NCBI GenBank assembly: GCA_903901425.1 | Contig: CAIURC010000103.1 | Location: 1 to 64,000, forward strand | Length of the DNA stretch: 64,000 nt | Reading direction: 5' to 3' | DNA from: an uncultured Spartobacteria bacterium | Lineage (GTDB): Bacteria; Verrucomicrobiota; Verrucomicrobiia; Chthoniobacterales; Chthoniobacteraceae | Shown here: positions 40,951-49,747 of the stretch, in pieces | Layout of the letters: every line of letters starts with the position of its first letter | Position numbering within the stretch: the first letter of the stretch is position 1 | The notes under the pieces: generated by a model | What the model was told of the DNA's origin: nothing | The model's input: the letters and a program-made list of their open reading frames with translations, nothing else | The model's database searches: none | Program-made: the position numbers and the translations under genes

Positions 40951-42261
40951 ATGAGTACACTCCTCGGTCTTGACGTAGGTTCCTCCTCAGTGATTGCCGG
41001 CATTCTGAAAGGCCGCAAAGTCTTGGCTGAATCCCCCCGGATTTTCTTCCGAACCCAGCATTCAGGTCCGCGCGTGGAGGTGGACGCCACCGACCTGCTT
41101 CAGGCAGTTGAAAAAGCCTTCGAAGGCTTGGGCGAAGCGGCCCGGCGCGTGGATGCCATCGCAATGGCTGTGATGTGCCCCGCATGGGTGGCCATGGATC
41201 GGGAAGGAAAACCTCTGACCCCGATTGTCACCCATCAGGACCGCCGTTCGGTCCAGATCGCCCATCAAATCGAGGAGCGGATCGGGCAGGACCAGCATCT
41301 GGCCCTCACGGGATGCCGGCCATTTCCGGGCGGCATCAGTTCCACAACATGGTCCTGGTACCGCAAACACGAACCGGCCCGGCTCAAGTCCGCCGATCTG
41401 GTGGGCCATTTGAACACGTTCCTGCACCGGCACCTCACCGGCGCTCGCGTAGTGGACCCGTCCAACGCCTCGTTCACCGGCCTCTTCAATACTCTCTCGC
41501 TCAAGGGGTGGAACACCGATCTGTGTAAAAACATCGGGGCCAGCCCAGCCCTTCTCCCTGACATCCTCGATGCGGACCGCGTGGCAGGCCGGATCACTGC
41601 AGCGGCAGCGCGCAGATTTCATCTCCGGGAAGGCACCCCGGTCCTGACCGGCCTCGTGGACGGCAGCGCCGGAATGCTCCTCGCAGGCGCCGAAATCGGA
41701 CAACTCTTCAACGTGTGCGGGTCGACCGATGTCCTGGCGCTTTGCACGGACAAACCCCGCCCAAACCCCCAACTCCTCACACGCGCACTGGGCGTCGACA
41801 ACAAGTTCCTCATGGTCGGCACTCTCGCGGCCGTGGCCTCCGCTCTTTACTGGGCACGGCTCCAAATGTTCCCGGAAATGTCGCTCGAAGATTTCAGGAA
41901 ACAAATGTTCCGGCTTGCCAAGAAAGGCCCTTCGGCGGCGGGCACCGTCACTTTTGATCCCTACATGGCCGGGGAACGCACCAGCATCGACCAGAGACAG
42001 GGAGCGTTTCACGGGCTCACTCTGGCGTCCAACCGGGAACAGATGCTCAGCGCGATGATCGAGTCGCTGGTGGCCGCCAGCGCAGCGCGACTGCCTTTGC
42101 TCAAAGCTTCCGGCACCAAAATCCTGCCCACCGTGGCCGTGTCGGGCGGGGCCGATCATCTCGACCGGATCCTGCGCAGGGACTGGCCCGGCAAATGGAA
42201 ATTCCGCTCGGTGACCGATGCCACCATGCGCGGATTGGGCACCCTGACTCCGAAGGAATAA
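40951..42261 (+). CDS. FGGY-family carbohydrate kinase
   Basis: It phosphorylates a sugar or polyol with ATP. The protein has 436 residues, slightly short for the family (usually 480-520). The first FGGY domain opens with LGLDVGSSSVIAGIL (phosphate 1), with PIVTHQDRRSVQIA for the substrate region. The second domain has GTPVLTGLVDGSAGMLLAG (phosphate 2) and AVSGGADHLDRILRRDWPG (adenosine). The substrate-specificity residues cannot be interpreted with confidence; sedoheptulose, xylulose or a rare sugar are all possible. A 174-bp gap separates it from dsbD; the thioredoxin-like gene follows after 4 bp. Confidence 0.82.
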   Translation: MSTLLGLDVGSSSVIAGILKGRKVLAESPRIFFRTQHSGPRVEVDATDLLQAVEKAFEGLGEAARRVDAIAMAVMCPAWVAMDREGKPLTPIVTHQDRRSVQIAHQIEERIGQDQHLALTGCRPFPGGISSTTWSWYRKHEPARLKSADLVGHLNTFLHRHLTGARVVDPSNASFTGLFNTLSLKGWNTDLCKNIGASPALLPDILDADRVAGRITAAAARRFHLREGTPVLTGLVDGSAGMLLAGAEIGQLFNVCGSTDVLALCTDKPRPNPQLLTRALGVDNKFLMVGTLAAVASALYWARLQMFPEMSLEDFRKQMFRLAKKGPSAAGTVTFDPYMAGERTSIDQRQGAFHGLTLASNREQMLSAMIESLVAASAARLPLLKASGTKILPTVAVSGGADHLDRILRRDWPGKWKFRSVTDATMRGLGTLTPKE

Positions 42262-42265
42262 TCTC

Positions 42266-42679
42266 ATGCGAGCACTCATCCCCTATCTCGCCCCGGTCTT
42301 TCTGGCTGTCCAAGCGTTTGCAGACGCGCCGGCACCGGTCCACTCGCTCCCCGAGGCGATCGCAAAGGCCAAGGCTGAAAACAAACTGCTCTTTGTGCAG
42401 TTCGGCCGGGTCGCCTGCGGGAATTGCCAAACCCTCAAAGGCTACCTCAAATCCGGCACTGTGAAACTCGACGAGTGCATCTATGTCGATCTGAATTGCG
42501 ACGACCCGGCCACCAACTCCGCCTTTGCTCGCCAGTTCACCGTCACGGGCAACGTCCTGCCATTTGTGGTGGTCGCCTCCCCGGAAGGACGGCAACTCGC
42601 CGAGCGCACCGGCTTTGGAAAGCCCGGTGATTTCAACGCGCTCATTCAAAAAGCGGGTAAGTCCCTCGAAAAACGCTGA
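42266..42679 (+). CDS. periplasmic thioredoxin-fold protein with CGNC motif
   Basis: The protein has 137 residues with signal peptide LIPYLAPVFLAVQAFADA. The thioredoxin fold is recognisable: AIAKAKAENKLLFVQFGRVACGNCQTL carries the redox pair CGNC, and VTGNVLPFVVVASPEG supplies the cis-Pro region (VLPF). It resembles DUF255/thioredoxin_7-type proteins rather than DsbA or TlpA. It is 4 bp downstream of the FGGY kinase and 7 bp upstream of a methyltransferase, with the ScsB/DsbD-like reductase in the same run, so it may be kept reduced by that protein. Confidence 0.83.
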   Translation: MRALIPYLAPVFLAVQAFADAPAPVHSLPEAIAKAKAENKLLFVQFGRVACGNCQTLKGYLKSGTVKLDECIYVDLNCDDPATNSAFARQFTVTGNVLPFVVVASPEGRQLAERTGFGKPGDFNALIQKAGKSLEKR

Positions 42680-42686
42680 CCCGACT

Positions 42687-43526
42687 GTGTCCACTGCCAC
42701 GGCATCCCCGCTTCATGCGGCTTTTCTGGCCAGAAAACCCAGCTTGGAACAGGAAGCCGGGTTCCAGGTTTTCATCAGCGGCTTGGTGGGACCCCTGCGT
42801 ATTTTTCAGAGGGAGGGCGGGCACAGGCATTCCATCGACGACGCCGCCACCGCCTGGTACGCGCTCCAGCACGCACCGGGAGCGTCCTGCTGCCTCGATC
42901 TGGGGACGGGCGTGGGAAGCGTCGGGCTTGCGGTTCTCCACGGACTCCCCCGGGATGCCCATCTGACCTGCATTGAGGCGCAGGAGGTCAGCCACCAACT
43001 GCTTGTGGCCAACATCGCCTGCAACGGGCTCCAAGACCGGGTCACCCCACTCTTCGGCGACCTTCGAAACCTCGATTTGCCCCAGAAATTCCCGCTCATC
43101 ACCGGGAGTCCCCCCTATTTTCCTGCCGGAAACGGCACGATTCCCTCCGACACTCAAAAAGCGCATGCCCGCTTTGAACTCCGGGGCCATGTCGGGGACT
43201 ACGCCGCAACGGCCAGAAAGCATCTGACCCCGCACGGGCGGTTTGTTTTCTGTTTTCCCTCCCTCCAAAAAGCCCGCTGCATCCAACTCGTTGAGGAGTC
43301 GGGCCTCCATGTTTCCCACTCGCGCGACGTGCATCCGCGGGAAAACCGGCCGTCCTTGTTCACGCTATTCTGCGCGCGCCTTGAGCCGGTGGAAAAACTG
43401 GAAACGGAACCGCCCTTTATTGTCGCCGATGCCGAGGGGCGTTACACCTCTGAGATGGTAACCTTCCAGTCCAGTCGCGGATTTGGACCGGACGGAACCA
43501 ACCACCTCGAGAGAAGGGCCTCCTGA
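42687..43526 (+). CDS. TrmN6-like SAM-dependent methyltransferase
   Basis: The protein has 279 residues. The Rossmann SAM motif is CCLDLGTGVGSVGLAV, followed by LTCIEAQEVSHQL (acidic ribose-binding residue) and the catalytic loop ITGSPPYFPAG. The (N/D/S)PPY motif marks N6-adenine methylation; here Ser replaces the Asn of TrmN6/YfiC. E. coli TrmN6 methylates A37 of tRNA-Val. The C-terminal ending (FIVADAEGRYTSEM) resembles the TrmN6 family end. The GTG at 42687 lies 7 bp after the thioredoxin-fold gene stop; the frame upstream of it overlaps that gene and is rejected. The substrate could be tRNA, rRNA or protein. Confidence 0.8.
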   Translation: MSTATASPLHAAFLARKPSLEQEAGFQVFISGLVGPLRIFQREGGHRHSIDDAATAWYALQHAPGASCCLDLGTGVGSVGLAVLHGLPRDAHLTCIEAQEVSHQLLVANIACNGLQDRVTPLFGDLRNLDLPQKFPLITGSPPYFPAGNGTIPSDTQKAHARFELRGHVGDYAATARKHLTPHGRFVFCFPSLQKARCIQLVEESGLHVSHSRDVHPRENRPSLFTLFCARLEPVEKLETEPPFIVADAEGRYTSEMVTFQSSRGFGPDGTNHLERRAS

Positions 43527-43707
43527 TCCGGAGCGACCCGGGGCAACTTGACCGGCATGGAGAGCCGGATAAAGCCCCTTCAGGTTTGTGGCAGCCAATG
43601 CCACACAGCCTGTCATTCGTCAGGCCAAAGCATCCGGGGCATGCTGAGCAGCAGTAAGCCCCGCTGTGACTCCCTTCATTCCAGTTCCAAAGACGCCTCA
43701 GGATTGC

Positions 43708-44127
43708 ATGAGTTTCCGCAACTCGTTGCTCGCGCTCCCGGATCATTACTTCGTGGCATCGATGGGGGGGAGGATTCCCACCCAGATCGAGAAACTTGCG
43801 TTGATCGAGAAGATGCTGGCCGACCAACTCCACCTTCAGACCTTTCAAAACGGACAATACACCGTGATTCTGGGGCACGTCCCTCCTTTGGTACGGATCA
43901 CCGTGATTCGCACCGACGATCAGCCTGTCCGGAGCTGGAAGGATCTTCAGGAAATCAAAAACATCTTCGTGGGTCCGGAGTGCGAGGCGGTGGAGGTATT
44001 TCCTGCGGAAAGCCGTCTGATGGATACCGCAAACGAGTACCACCTGTGGGCGCATCCAAATCCGGAGTTCCGTTTTCCTTTCGGCTTTCAGTGTGCTCGG
44101 ACGGTAATCCCAGCGAACCCAATCTGA
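43708..44127 (+). CDS. DUF7694-like small protein
   Basis: The protein has 139 residues, cytoplasmic. The C-terminal half carries SWKDLQEIKNIFVGPECEAV, VFPAESRLMDTANEYHLWAH and FRFPFGFQ. This W-x-x-(x)-Q-x-IKN-x-x-x-G-E/P block plus PAESRL-x-D-x-x-EYHLW recurs in the gene at 45837-46850. I recognise the pattern from a family of small proteins (DUF7694) of unknown role, found in phages, plasmids and bacteria. The Met at 43708 is preferred for a short AGG upstream; a GTG at 43666 is possible. It is 85 bp upstream of the histidine kinase, in the same direction. Confidence 0.75.
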   Translation: MSFRNSLLALPDHYFVASMGGRIPTQIEKLALIEKMLADQLHLQTFQNGQYTVILGHVPPLVRITVIRTDDQPVRSWKDLQEIKNIFVGPECEAVEVFPAESRLMDTANEYHLWAHPNPEFRFPFGFQCARTVIPANPI

Positions 44128-44212
44128 GGGACTGTAAAGGCCCCAGGGAGAAGCCCTTCAGAGTGGGAAGGATACTTTTCAACCCAAGCCCCAAGGAGTA
44201 GTATTCTGTGTA

Positions 44213-45226
44213 GTGTCGTCCTCTTTTGTACGCCTGATCGACTGTTTGGAGACGCCCACCGTTCTGAAGATCTCAGCGGCGTTCATGGTGCTCATTGGAT
44301 GGCTGGACTGGTGGACGTCTTGGGAAACCAGCCTCTTTGTTTTCTACGCCGGTCCCATTTCGCTCATCGCGTGGAGGGTCCACCGGCAGGCTGGAATTAC
44401 GCTTGGGGTGATTTCGGGGTTCGTATGGCTTTTTGCAAACTGGAACACCCACCCCTACCAGTCGCTGTTCGCCTACCTTTGGGCGTCTGCCAACCGAACC
44501 ATCTACTTTGTGTTTGTGGCCTTGGGTGTTGCCGCATTCCGCAGTCTTCGGCAGGAAAGCGAGGCAAAACTGGAGGCCTTACTGGCTGCGAGGAATCTGG
44601 AACGCCTGGTCACATTTTCCGGAGAAAGAGAACAAATGCGGATTGGCCGAGATCTTCACGACGGAGTCTGCCAAAGCCTTGCTGCGATTGATTGTGCAAC
44701 CGAGTACCTGCGCTCAGAACTCCGGAAAGAAGGCCTTGCTCAGGCCCATGTGGCTGAGGCGATCCAAAAAATGGTCCGGAACACCATCCATGAGGCCAAG
44801 ACACTGGCCCGCGGCCTGTTCCCGGTGAAACTCGACCAGCAGGGTCTTGAAACCGCGCTGCACGATGTGACCACCTCCATGGCGGATCTGTACGGCATTC
44901 CCGTCGATGTTCAGATCGAGGGCGATATCTCAGAACTCAGTTCCGAGAAGGCCCTCCACGTTTACCGAATTGCCCAAGAGGCTGTCAGCAACGCCCTGCG
45001 CCATGCTAACCCCTCCCAAGTCCATCTCCACCTCACGCTCCAAGAGAATTCGATGCTGGTCCTCAGAGTCACTGACGATGGAACCGGCTTTTCTTCTGCC
45101 GACCACGACTCCGCAGGGGTCGGAATCCAAAGCATGCGGCACCGCGCGCAAATTCTTGGGGGCACCCTGACTATCCGACCCGGTGCAGAAAGCGGTACCC
45201 AGATAGAATGTATTTTTCCCCTATGA
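44213..45226 (+). CDS. membrane histidine kinase, NarX/DegS-like (HisKA_3 + HATPase_c)
   Basis: The protein has 337 residues. About four N-terminal hydrophobic helices (residues 18-110) include GWLDWWTSWETSLFVFYAGP, a pattern typical of small membrane input domains in PVC bacteria. A short linker precedes the phosphoacceptor REQMRIGRDLHDGVCQSLAA with His149. HATPase_c boxes are EAVSNALRHANPS (N), DDGTGFSSAD (G1) and GVGIQSMRHRAQILGG (G2). There is no extracytoplasmic sensor domain, so it probably senses within the membrane. The GTG start at 44213 is accepted. It is translationally coupled to the response regulator by an ATGA overlap. Confidence 0.93.
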   Translation: MSSSFVRLIDCLETPTVLKISAAFMVLIGWLDWWTSWETSLFVFYAGPISLIAWRVHRQAGITLGVISGFVWLFANWNTHPYQSLFAYLWASANRTIYFVFVALGVAAFRSLRQESEAKLEALLAARNLERLVTFSGEREQMRIGRDLHDGVCQSLAAIDCATEYLRSELRKEGLAQAHVAEAIQKMVRNTIHEAKTLARGLFPVKLDQQGLETALHDVTTSMADLYGIPVDVQIEGDISELSSEKALHVYRIAQEAVSNALRHANPSQVHLHLTLQENSMLVLRVTDDGTGFSSADHDSAGVGIQSMRHRAQILGGTLTIRPGAESGTQIECIFPL

Positions 45227-45879
45227 CAGCCTCCCCTGCACGCGTTCTTCTTGTTGAAGACCACCGGATGTTTCGCGAGTGGCTAGGCACCATGCTCATG
45301 GCCACAGGGCGGTTCAAAGTGGTTGCTGAAACCGACAACGGCGCTGAGGCCATCCAACTCGCACTCACCCACAAACCCGACGCTCTGCTGGTCGATCTCG
45401 GCCTCCGGGGTTCCGGGGGACTTGAACTGGTGAAAAGTCTTCGAAGCCTTCAGATCCTTGCGCCGATCCTCATTCTTTCGATGCACGAAGACGCACTTTA
45501 TGCACAGCGCGCCATCGCCGCCGGCGCGAACGGCTACATCAGCAAGAGCGAGGCTTCATCCACCCTTTTTTCCGCGCTCGACCAAATCATCCACGGCAAC
45601 TTTCACCTCAGTCCCGCCGCTCAAACCCAAATCCTCCACTCCCTTGCGTCTGGAAAACGTCACCAAGGTTCTCCCATCGATTCGCTGGCCGACCGGGAGC
45701 TTGAAGTCTTCCAACTGATTGGAAAAGGCTACAACATTCCGAAAATCGCCGAATTGCTGAATCTCGGAGAAACCACCGTTGGCACCTATCGGGCACGGAT
45801 CAAGGAAAAGCTCCAGATTCGCAGCGCCGCCGAGCTCTACGCGCTCGCCGCACGCTGGCTTTCGGAGAACCAAGCCTGA
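45223..45879 (+). CDS. NarL/FixJ-type response regulator
   Basis: The protein has 218 residues. The receiver domain (7-125) has acidic pocket VEDHRM, phosphoacceptor Asp58 in ALLVDLGLRGSGG, Ser/Thr switch in LILSMHEDA and Lys in GYISKSEASS. The LuxR-type HTH domain (about 155-215) shows SLADRELEVFQLIGKGYNIP and NLGETTVGTYRARIKEKL. The Met at 45223 gives an ATGA overlap with the kinase; Met at 45208 is five residues longer. The 3' end overlaps the convergent DUF7694-like gene by 43 bp. It is the likely regulator of neighbouring genes, but no operator can be pointed to. Confidence 0.94.
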   Translation: MTASPARVLLVEDHRMFREWLGTMLMATGRFKVVAETDNGAEAIQLALTHKPDALLVDLGLRGSGGLELVKSLRSLQILAPILILSMHEDALYAQRAIAAGANGYISKSEASSTLFSALDQIIHGNFHLSPAAQTQILHSLASGKRHQGSPIDSLADRELEVFQLIGKGYNIPKIAELLNLGETTVGTYRARIKEKLQIRSAAELYALAARWLSENQA

Positions 45880-46850
45880 CCTGGAAAAACCGGCGAAAGC
45901 CCGGCACCGTTCACCCAACGCTTTTCATAGCCCAAGGGCAGGCGAATCTCCGAATCCGCACTGACCCAGACCTCCACTGGCCTCGCCATCCCTTGCCAGT
46001 CATGCCCATTCGAGGCGCCGAAGACCTCCACTCCCTCGTGTTCAGAGCCAATCAAGTCGTTTTTGATTCTCTGAACTTCTGCCCAACCAGCACGCAATCC
46101 TTCCTCCAGACTCCAAATCCAGAGCCTGAACCAATCACCGATCTGGCAAGCCCAAACCACGCCCCCCACCACCACAAACCCCGCCCCCTGCCCGACCCAA
46201 AAACCCTTTCCCCCAAACGCCCCCTCAAAGGGCGGCTCCCATCGAATCGAGAATTCCTCAAGCAGATCGCTGAGACTCCCGTCCCGGGCGGTACAAAGCC
46301 CGCCTCTGTGGAGCCGCTTTGGAACCTCAGAACACGCGGTACTTTTCCCCAGACCGATGTTCCAATCCGGGCAAGTTGGAATCCAAAGGTGATATTCATC
46401 GCCTGAATCCACCAGCCGGCTTTCCGCCGGATAAAGCTCGTAAGCAGCCGCATCAGCAAATTCGCTCACCAAACTCTCAAGCTCGCCGACTCTGCGCCGT
46501 TTTTCTCCGCAAACAGGCCAGAAATTGATGACTTGGAAACCCCGCTCTTGGAAAAGCCGCACGCTCCAGTCCCCGTTGGTGTAGTTCCAAGACGTGGTCA
46601 TCCTGGCCACCGACACCTCAATCCACTGCAGCCACTCAGCCATACATGGCACCCGGCCTCCGAACAGAGAGGCGCAGTACACCGGGCCCTGCTGCAAAAG
46701 AGTCTCCCTCAGGATCATCGCATCCCCCTCCCACGCTTCAACCCTCTGGAATGAGGCAAACTGCTGAGCTCCCACCGAACGCCTGTGGCCGCTGCGCTCT
46801 TGTACACTCGAGAGACTCATGGGCGGGGCGAACTGTTTCATGGGCATCAC
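45837..46850 (-). CDS. DUF7694-like protein with two diverged domain copies
   Basis: The protein has 337 residues, no signal peptide. The first copy (about 115-165) reads ESLVSEFADAAAYELYPAES then RLVDSGDEYHLWIPTC. The second copy (about 253-305) reads AEVQRIKNDLIGSEHEGVEV followed by ARPVEVWVSADSEIRLPLGY. Each matches one half best of the single-copy protein at 43708-44127, so this gene looks like an internal duplication of that family with the motifs decayed differently. The N-terminus carries FGGRVPCMAEWLQWIEVSVARM, comparable to the N-terminal half of the small paralogue. Its 3' end overlaps the response regulator by 43 bp in antisense. Function unknown. Confidence 0.75.
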   Translation of the reverse strand: MMPMKQFAPPMSLSSVQERSGHRRSVGAQQFASFQRVEAWEGDAMILRETLLQQGPVYCASLFGGRVPCMAEWLQWIEVSVARMTTSWNYTNGDWSVRLFQERGFQVINFWPVCGEKRRRVGELESLVSEFADAAAYELYPAESRLVDSGDEYHLWIPTCPDWNIGLGKSTACSEVPKRLHRGGLCTARDGSLSDLLEEFSIRWEPPFEGAFGGKGFWVGQGAGFVVVGGVVWACQIGDWFRLWIWSLEEGLRAGWAEVQRIKNDLIGSEHEGVEVFGASNGHDWQGMARPVEVWVSADSEIRLPLGYEKRWVNGAGLSPVFPGQAWFSESQRAASA

Positions 46851-47003
46851 CCTCCCATGCAGTCCCCCTCCCTGAAAAATGTCTCAGCCAGTCGCCATTT
46901 CTCCACTTCCGCCGTGGCATTTCCAGCCACACGGATTTTTTACGCCAGAGACACTGCGGATGAACCTCGAAGGCGATCCCCGAATTTCCGGAGCGACTCC
47001 TTG

Positions 47004-47032
47004 AAAAATCAGGGGAATAGGGAATCCCCTGA
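47004..47032 (-). terminator. intrinsic-terminator-like hairpin in the leader of the DUF7694-like gene
   Basis: On the minus strand an 8-bp perfect stem TCAGGGGA/TCCCCTGA with an 8-nt loop is followed at once by TTTTT. It lies 153 bp upstream of the minus-strand gene that starts at 46850 and 78 bp upstream of the divergent P-type ATPase start. It may attenuate transcription into the DUF7694-like gene or stop antisense transcripts from the ATPase region. Confidence 0.4.
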
Positions 47033-47110
47033 ACACCAAACCCGGACCACCCCGCCCCCTCCACAGATCGCCAACACCACCGTGCCCGGATAGGCTCCAC
47101 AACGCACTGT

Positions 47111-49747
47111 TTGCCACACAAGTTGTGCATGCTTCCGAACCCCGATTCTTTGTCCGGACTCTCCTCTGCGGAGGCAGAGAAACTCCTCGCGCTGCACGGC
47201 CCCAACGCGCTGCCTGAAACGCCCGCCAAAAGCAGGCTATCCATTCTCGTCCACCAGTTTCAAAGCCCTCTGGTCGGTGTCCTTGCCGCTGCCGCGCTCC
47301 TCGCGTTTGCGATTGGGAAACCGGGCGATTCCAGCGTCATTCTGATTGTCCTTTTTGCGAACGCACTTCTCGGAGCGTTTCAGGAAGGACGGGCGGAGAG
47401 ATCGATGGCTGCTTTGCGGTCCCTGGCCCCACTCAAGGCACGGGTCCGGAGGGACGGCCAGGACGTCTTTGTCGATGCACGACTCCTTGTTCCCGGCGAC
47501 CTTCTTCTGGTCGCCCAAGGAGACGCAATTGCCGCAGATGCCCAGCTGATCTCCTGCGCCTCCCTCCACACACAGGAATCGGCGCTGACTGGGGAATCCC
47601 TTCCCGTTCTGAAAAATCCGGCGCCGCTTCCGGAATCGACGCCGCTCGCAGATCGGGCGGACCGGCTTCATGCAGGAACCCATGTCGCTTCGGGACGCGG
47701 CATTGCCCAGGTAGACGCCACCGGGACAAGCACACATCTGGGAAGGGTTGCGACTCTGGCAAGCTCGGCCAAAGAACCTGCGACGCCGCTGGAGATCCGA
47801 ATGAACCGTTTGAGTTCCCAACTGGGCGCTGCGGCATTTCTGGTTGCTCTCGGAGTGGTGCTGCTGGGGTCCCTGCGGAAGATGCCCATGACGGACCTCC
47901 TCATGGTCGCGATGAGCCAGATGGTGTCTTTGGTCCCGGAGGGTCTGCCGGTGGCACTGACCATCGCGCTGGCCGTCGGGATGCAGCGCCTGGCCGCTCA
48001 TGGGGCGATGGTCCGCAGGCTTTCCGCCATCGAAACCTTGGGGGCGGTCAGCGTGATTTGCAGCGACAAAACAGGTACCCTGACCCAGAACGCGATGACC
48101 GTCACGCGCGCCTGGCTTCCCGATGGGAGTCTCTTTCACACCACAGGCACTGGGTTCACGCCCGAGGGCACAATCGAACCGGCCCCCACCCCGCCCCTCA
48201 AGCAACTGGCACTGGCAGGGGCACTCTGCAGCGATGCCAGGCTGATCCCGCCCGCACGAAAAGACGCGCTCTGGTCCGCCGCGGGCGATCCGACGGAGGC
48301 GGCCTTGGTCGCATTTGCAGAGAAGGCAGGAGCCGACACCTCAGGCTACTGCCGTGTGCAGGAACTCCCGTTTGATTCAGAGGCGCAACTCATGGCCACT
48401 GAACATTGGCGCCCGGATGGAGAGATTCTTTGCGCACTGAAAGGTTCCCCGGAGGCCATTCTGGAACTGTGTTCCATCGATGCTGAAAAGGCGGAAAATG
48501 CACACCATCAGGCGCAAAAATTTGCCTCGGAGTCCCTCCGTGTCCTCGCCGTTGCTCAGGCGGAGGGACCACTCTTGCCCCATGCGGGATTCCGCCAGTT
48601 TCGAGGCCGCGTGACTCTTCTTGGGCTGGTCGCCCAATGGGACCCTCCCCGGGAAGATGCGCGCTGGGCCGTTGCCGAATGCCGCTCGGCTGGAATCCGG
48701 CCCGTGATGATTACAGGCGACCACAAATCCACGGGGCTTGCAGTCGCCCAACGACTCGACATTGCGCGTGCGGATGACCTTGCACTGGATGGCACCGAAC
48801 TTGAAGAAATGCCGGAACCCGAGCTTCAGGCCAAACTCCCACGGATTGCGGTTTTTGCCCGGGTGCATCCGGCCCAAAAACTCCGGATAGTTTCCGCCCT
48901 TCAAGATGCCGGGCACGTGGTGGCGATGACCGGAGACGGCGTCAATGACGCGCCTGCTTTGGCGCGTGCGGATGTGGGGGTAGCCATGGGTATTTCGGGA
49001 ACGGAAGTGGCCAAGGCGGCCGCCTGCGTGGTGCTTTCCGACGACCGGTTCGCCACTCTGGTGGAAGCCGTCCGACAGGGACGCGTGGTCCACTCCAACC
49101 TTCAGAAACTCCTTCTTTTCCTTCTGGCGACTTCACTGGATGAAGCCATGCTGCTTTTGCTGGCCCTTGGGTTTGGACTTCCGCTCCCGCTGGCACCGGT
49201 TCAGATCCTCTGGATCAATCTCGTCACCGAGGGCGCCCTCACGGTGAACCTCGTACTCGAACGGGCAGAAGGCGATGAGATGCACAGGCGGCCCCCTGCG
49301 AAAAACGCCCCTTTCTTCTCGAAAGAACTCCAGCGCAGAATCGGGTGGATGGTGGCGGCCTCCGTGCTGGTCACGTTCGGCTTCTATTTCTGGCAACTCC
49401 ACACCGGAACCCCGTTCCCCTCGGTACAGACTCAGACGTTCACCCTTCTGGCCATGTGCCAGTGGTTCAACGTTCTCAACTGCGAAAGTGCCACGCGCTC
49501 GGTGTTCAGACTTGGCATCCTGAAAAACCGATGGCTCGCCGGTGGACTCGTGGTGGCCATCTCCCTTCAAGTCGCCGTGCTAAATCTGCCAGCGCTCCAA
49601 AATGCGATTCACACCGTGCCATTGCCCCCCTCAGAACTCTTCCGGCTTGCAGCAATCGCCAGCACCGTCCTGTTTACTGAAGAGATCCGCAAAACGGCGC
49701 TCCGGAGAAAATTCCGGTCGAGTCGACCGAAAAAAAATGGGGAGTGA
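47111..49747 (+). CDS. P-type cation-transporting ATPase (P2-like)
   Basis: This ATP-driven cation pump of the inner membrane has 878 residues and about ten helices. The actuator motif is ALTGES (159-163), TM4 carries LVPEGLPVALT, and the phosphorylation site is CSDKTGTLTQ with Asp319. The nucleotide-binding region includes LKGSPEAIL, and the hinge motif is MTGDGVNDAPALARADVGVA. TM6 contains LWINLVTEGALTVNLVLE, comparable to the Asn/Thr/Asp set of Ca2+ pumps but with Glu for Asp. This places it near Ca2+/Na+/K+-type P2 pumps rather than heavy-metal P1B pumps (no CPC motif). The ion is undetermined. Met7 is an alternative start. Confidence 0.92.
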   Translation: MPHKLCMLPNPDSLSGLSSAEAEKLLALHGPNALPETPAKSRLSILVHQFQSPLVGVLAAAALLAFAIGKPGDSSVILIVLFANALLGAFQEGRAERSMAALRSLAPLKARVRRDGQDVFVDARLLVPGDLLLVAQGDAIAADAQLISCASLHTQESALTGESLPVLKNPAPLPESTPLADRADRLHAGTHVASGRGIAQVDATGTSTHLGRVATLASSAKEPATPLEIRMNRLSSQLGAAAFLVALGVVLLGSLRKMPMTDLLMVAMSQMVSLVPEGLPVALTIALAVGMQRLAAHGAMVRRLSAIETLGAVSVICSDKTGTLTQNAMTVTRAWLPDGSLFHTTGTGFTPEGTIEPAPTPPLKQLALAGALCSDARLIPPARKDALWSAAGDPTEAALVAFAEKAGADTSGYCRVQELPFDSEAQLMATEHWRPDGEILCALKGSPEAILELCSIDAEKAENAHHQAQKFASESLRVLAVAQAEGPLLPHAGFRQFRGRVTLLGLVAQWDPPREDARWAVAECRSAGIRPVMITGDHKSTGLAVAQRLDIARADDLALDGTELEEMPEPELQAKLPRIAVFARVHPAQKLRIVSALQDAGHVVAMTGDGVNDAPALARADVGVAMGISGTEVAKAAACVVLSDDRFATLVEAVRQGRVVHSNLQKLLLFLLATSLDEAMLLLLALGFGLPLPLAPVQILWINLVTEGALTVNLVLERAEGDEMHRRPPAKNAPFFSKELQRRIGWMVAASVLVTFGFYFWQLHTGTPFPSVQTQTFTLLAMCQWFNVLNCESATRSVFRLGILKNRWLAGGLVVAISLQVAVLNLPALQNAIHTVPLPPSELFRLAAIASTVLFTEEIRKTALRRKFRSSRPKKNGE

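Follow-up and report, generated by a model that had tools for sequence, protein, structure and literature searches.

Two-component systems of the NarL/FixJ type, among them NarX-NarL, UhpB-UhpA and DesK-DesR, combine a HisKA_3 histidine kinase with a regulator built from a receiver and a GerE domain, and the two genes are adjacent and overlapping. DUF7694 (PF24746, phrog_7839) is mainly a phage family. In a 64,000-nucleotide stretch of DNA from an uncultured Spartobacteria bacterium (contig CAIURC010000103.1; the window, the whole stretch that was analysed), a kinase/regulator pair of this construction lies between two DUF7694 genes. Like phage or prophage genes that chromosomes have taken over, these belong to a mostly viral family and have host-type neighbours; unlike them, DUF7694 is linked here to a single signalling system, next to which it has been duplicated several times. 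The linked genes fall outside any described NarL/FixJ system that we found. Judged from sequence, the locus probably represents a NarL-type system with the phage-related DUF7694 as its target family, present in a small number of soil bacteria that belong to the Chthoniobacter family. We lean, with modest confidence, towards a private regulon around this two-component system, of which DUF7694 would be the main output.

The kinase/regulator pair and its flanking genes

The small DUF7694 gene (43666-44127, plus strand) encodes a protein of 153 aa with a GTG start and, as the earlier note had proposed, a single domain, which is intact and scores 53.5 bits (E 2.1e-14) against PF24746, where the gathering cut-off, a whole-protein score, is 27 bits. 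The start that the note had given, 43708, is probably 42 nt too late: the most likely start is the GTG at 43666, because the conserved N-terminus of the relatives, MxPF, falls there, and in two relatives the MxPF start codon is preceded by a good ribosome-binding site. Alignment indicates that the small protein retains the conserved positions of the wider DUF7694 family, K98, P113, E115, D120 and H126 being invariant, and the retention of conserved polar residues suggests that intact copies are functional. Just 5′ of the gene, a long ORF (42525-43526) has a weak small-methyltransferase match; the relatives that were inspected do not have it next to DUF7694.

Downstream on the same strand are a membrane sensor histidine kinase (44213-45226), with HisKA_3 and HATPase_c over the Pfam cut-offs and no recognised sensor domain, and a NarL/FixJ-type response regulator (45208-45879), with Response_reg and GerE likewise over the cut-offs, which overlaps the end of the kinase gene. 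The complete pair described earlier between the two DUF7694 genes is thus confirmed by Pfam, and the adjoining HisKA_3-HATPase_c kinase and receiver-GerE regulator place it among NarL/FixJ two-component systems. None of the NCBIfam equivalog cut-offs (NarXL, UhpBA, LiaSR and others) was reached, the best scores being 119 of 408 bits for the kinase and 124 of 242 for the regulator. The four best kinase matches within the family come one from each of the four genomes with this DUF7694 type, the three relatives matching at 41-46%.

The large gene (45837-46850, minus strand; 337 aa), whose true start may be an ATG at about 46841, encodes two decayed DUF7694 repeats. The whole protein reaches 35.4 bits (E 9.7e-9) against PF24746, while the repeats taken singly score 25.2 and 15.7 bits in the genome search, each below the cut-off. 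With both flanking proteins above the Pfam cut-off and a mutual BLASTP match of 30% over 135 aa (E 7e-17; a second stretch E 4e-9), the assignment of both genes to DUF7694 holds. The two conserved blocks said to be shared are both present in the large protein but split between its repeats, PAESRLVD..EYHLW in repeat 1 and W..VQRIKN..IG in repeat 2, so that neither repeat has both. The branch lengths of the repeats are very long (4.6 and 5.4 changes per column), and the two-repeat copy is either decaying or changed in role. Its 43-bp overlap with the regulator gene (45837-45879) is real, though an ordinary tail-to-tail one. The search of the window genome returned no further DUF7694 gene over the cut-off. 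A P-type cation-transporting ATPase gene (47111-49747) diverges from the large gene, and the second of the dyads described below is in the intergenic stretch between them.

Recurrence and ancestry of the arrangement

A profile built from seven proteins found the two-component-linked DUF7694 type in four of the 213 genomes of the order, and no such protein besides the window's own among 387 genomes sampled across the phylum. In all four carriers at least one DUF7694 copy adjoins a regulator of one clade, in varying gene order. The window genome has DUF7694, kinase and regulator in that order, followed by the large gene in antisense orientation; a Chthoniobacter flavus MAG (G003) has the same three genes in the same order; a Verrucomicrobia MAG (G039) has kinase, DUF7694, regulator, DUF7694; and C. 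flavus Ellin428 (G016) has DUF7694, regulator, DUF7694, together with a third DUF7694 gene that stands alone and a separate kinase-regulator pair elsewhere. Seven of the eight DUF7694 genes flank two-component genes, the lone Ellin428 copy being the exception, and the linkage persists despite changes of order and strand. Recurrence of the neighbourhood, which had been set as a check, is therefore seen in three further genomes; the arrangement is real and recurrent, and probably functional.

The linked regulators form one clade (98/96) drawn exclusively from these four genomes, and it takes in an Ellin428 regulator that has lost its linkage to DUF7694. Ellin428 carries two regulators of this clade, at loci L084 (G016:C59) and L025 (G016:C57): one has a kinase and no DUF7694 gene, the other sits amid two DUF7694 genes without a kinase, as if a system had been split.

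In the DUF7694 tree, the seven intact genes group with repeat 1 of the large gene in one clade (100/100), and 76 phage and other bacterial relatives all fall outside it; repeat 2 is too divergent to be placed. Copies from the same genome are each other's nearest kin, which implies separate duplications in the lineages of the window genome, G016 and G039, with gene conversion as an alternative. The DUF7694 and regulator trees show the same split, the window genome and G003 against G016 and G039, a match that is consistent with shared inheritance.

Upstream elements and the proposed regulon

The DUF7694 genes of the window genus are preceded by a dyad with the consensus TGTRGCR-N5-YGCYACA. A perfect 7-5-7 copy, TGTGGCA-GCCAA-TGCCACA (43587-43605; 14/14), is found 79 nt upstream of the small gene as a putative operator; a dyad-like element, TGTGGCT-GGAAA-TGCCACG in its minus-strand reading (46913-46931; 12/14), lies 81 nt upstream of the large gene; and TGTAGCG-TCCGG-CGCTACA (14/14) stands before the G003 gene. 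Dyad scores before these three genes (14, 12 and 14 of 14) compare with 9-10 before the kinases, whose upstream regions do not match it, and exact copies of TGTRGCRNNNNNYGCYACA number one in the window genome (5.1 Mb) and one in G003, both before DUF7694 genes; because the pattern was written after these sites had been seen, its scores there are no independent test. When a model was trained on the small-gene site alone, the large-gene site scored higher than any of the 1187 control windows (p 0.0008), while the G003 site gave p 0.02. Outside the window genus the dyad loses strength, a point against the regulon: held-out p values were 0.01-0.02 in G039 and 0.07, 0.70 and 0.17 for the three Ellin428 genes. 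At 12 related two-component loci without DUF7694, no dyad copy scored above 12/14. One-mismatch copies were rejected as extra regulon members, as the checked sites lay in ORFs and their numbers were below those of the reversed-pattern control.

The arms of the dyad differ between the window and G003 yet remain complementary, as those of a stem would, and the element could accordingly be read as a hairpin of the 5′ leader RNA (an attenuator or binding site) rather than a DNA operator. We consider this very doubtful, given that G016 and G039 have imperfect arms, that an Rfam scan of 42000-48000 gave no family match and that a symmetric 7-5-7 site equally suits a dimer of the LuxR type.

A second element, the 14-nt motif YCAWGWSTTTTGYG, occurs upstream of all five DUF7694 genes of G016 and G039, which represent two genera. 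The pattern required by the three G016 sites also fits both G039 sites unaltered, and the only other copies in the two genomes together (13.7 Mb) are three, all within reading frames. The motif may be an operator or part of a promoter. It is absent from the window genome, which leaves two lineages without one clear common operator and speaks against the regulon; an upstream element specific to DUF7694 genes is present, a separate one in each lineage, with the dyad weak in G016.

It is conceivable, but improbable, that the linkage has no function: a phage gene would have landed beside the system in an ancestor, been inherited and been duplicated in place, and the upstream likeness would be a remnant of duplication. 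Such a history would suit the restriction of carriers to four genomes and one DUF7694 clade, the close kinship of same-genome duplicates and the decay of the large copy. It sits poorly with a linkage that was retained while order and strand were reshuffled, with conserved positions retained in seven intact proteins of 41-56% identity to the window protein, and with a 14-nt motif common to two genera.

Under the private-regulon reading, the membrane kinase would detect a signal and phosphorylate the regulator, a dimer of which would bind the short dyad that precedes the DUF7694 genes by about 80 nt, switching them on. DUF7694 is probably switched on by the kinase/regulator pair because its genes have upstream DNA signals of their own. 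The same site would also drive the two-component system itself in the window and G003, a feedback suggested by the small DUF7694 gene being followed by kinase and regulator on the same strand. Gene content, recurrence, the single DUF7694 clade, the single regulator clade and the DUF7694-specific upstream elements are seen in the sequences; operon transcription, binding of the regulator to the elements and the direction of regulation are what we infer. The earlier suggestion that the DUF7694 proteins are controlled by this system gains support, at the level of sequence, from elements confined to their genes; they may also report to it, the other alternative that had been put forward. Against the regulon, duplicated genes could have carried their upstream DNA along, and in G016 the kinase-regulator pair has no DUF7694 gene beside it and one DUF7694 copy stands by itself.

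Phage relatives and possible function of DUF7694

The viral-contig scan gave 461 relatives of DUF7694, and five sequenced phage records contain the family. With the domain mainly viral elsewhere, a phage ancestry of the chromosomal genes is likely, transfer having presumably run from phage to bacterium. The two-component-linked proteins share the domain, over the cut-off, with the phage family and differ from it in forming their own clade, in a common conserved N-terminal region, in chromosomal gene surroundings and in missing the C-terminal QRP tail of most phage members. The phage neighbours are a mixture of DNA-replication, nucleotide-metabolism and packaging genes, among which no constant partner was found, and they at most hint at nucleic-acid or nucleotide chemistry.

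For the small DUF7694 protein, an AF2 model was obtained with a mean pLDDT of 92.6. A PDB fold search with it gave no match at E < 0.001 (best 0.058), a BFVD search returned other DUF7694 phage proteins, and a sequence search of solved structures returned none. A VIA-align comparison with HINT proteins gave Z 4-5, inside the chance range, and DUF7694 alignments show a single conserved histidine instead of the H-x-H-x-H motif of the HIT (histidine triad) superfamily. PADLOC defence models matched neither DUF7694 nor the kinase, with only a weak HTH-region match for the regulator (E 0.0029); NCBIfam had no match for DUF7694; and the open-literature search found no paper naming it, broader searches giving nothing relevant.

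DUF7694 might instead act on the system, as an accessory or connector that binds kinase or regulator, tunes signalling and is kept adjacent for that reason. We rate this as unlikely. In its favour, the linkage is tight in differing orders, with DUF7694 between kinase and regulator in G039, and the two trees split alike. The protein has no known interaction domain and no significant PDB fold match, however; DUF7694 copies outnumber linked kinases in G016 and G039, G016 having its lone copy; and among 160 viral loci with scanned flanks none is near a convincing NarL-type system, the one weak kinase-domain match having E 5e-6. Somewhat more doubtful still is the fuller proposal that the phage family was taken over as a dedicated two-component part, a new type of connector acting on kinase or regulator and duplicated independently in three lineages.

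DUF7694 is common in phages. Its chromosomal version, tied to one sensor system, comes with candidate operators and has a relative in culture, C. flavus Ellin428; it offers a concrete route to the inducer and to the role of the family. The locus further provides a clear-cut example of repeated duplication of a phage-related gene beside one signalling system.

DUF7694-like genes are abundant in Ktedonobacter chromosomes, some with unrelated N-termini; K. racemifer has six or more loci (L038, L040, L042, L047, L049 and L050 among them), and loci L041 and L045 are in K. robiniae; no matching two-component genes lie near them. In another genome of the same family as the window's (G037), a canonical phage-type DUF7694 gene (L028:2034-2393), distinct from the two-component-linked type, adjoins phage genes of the transposition type.
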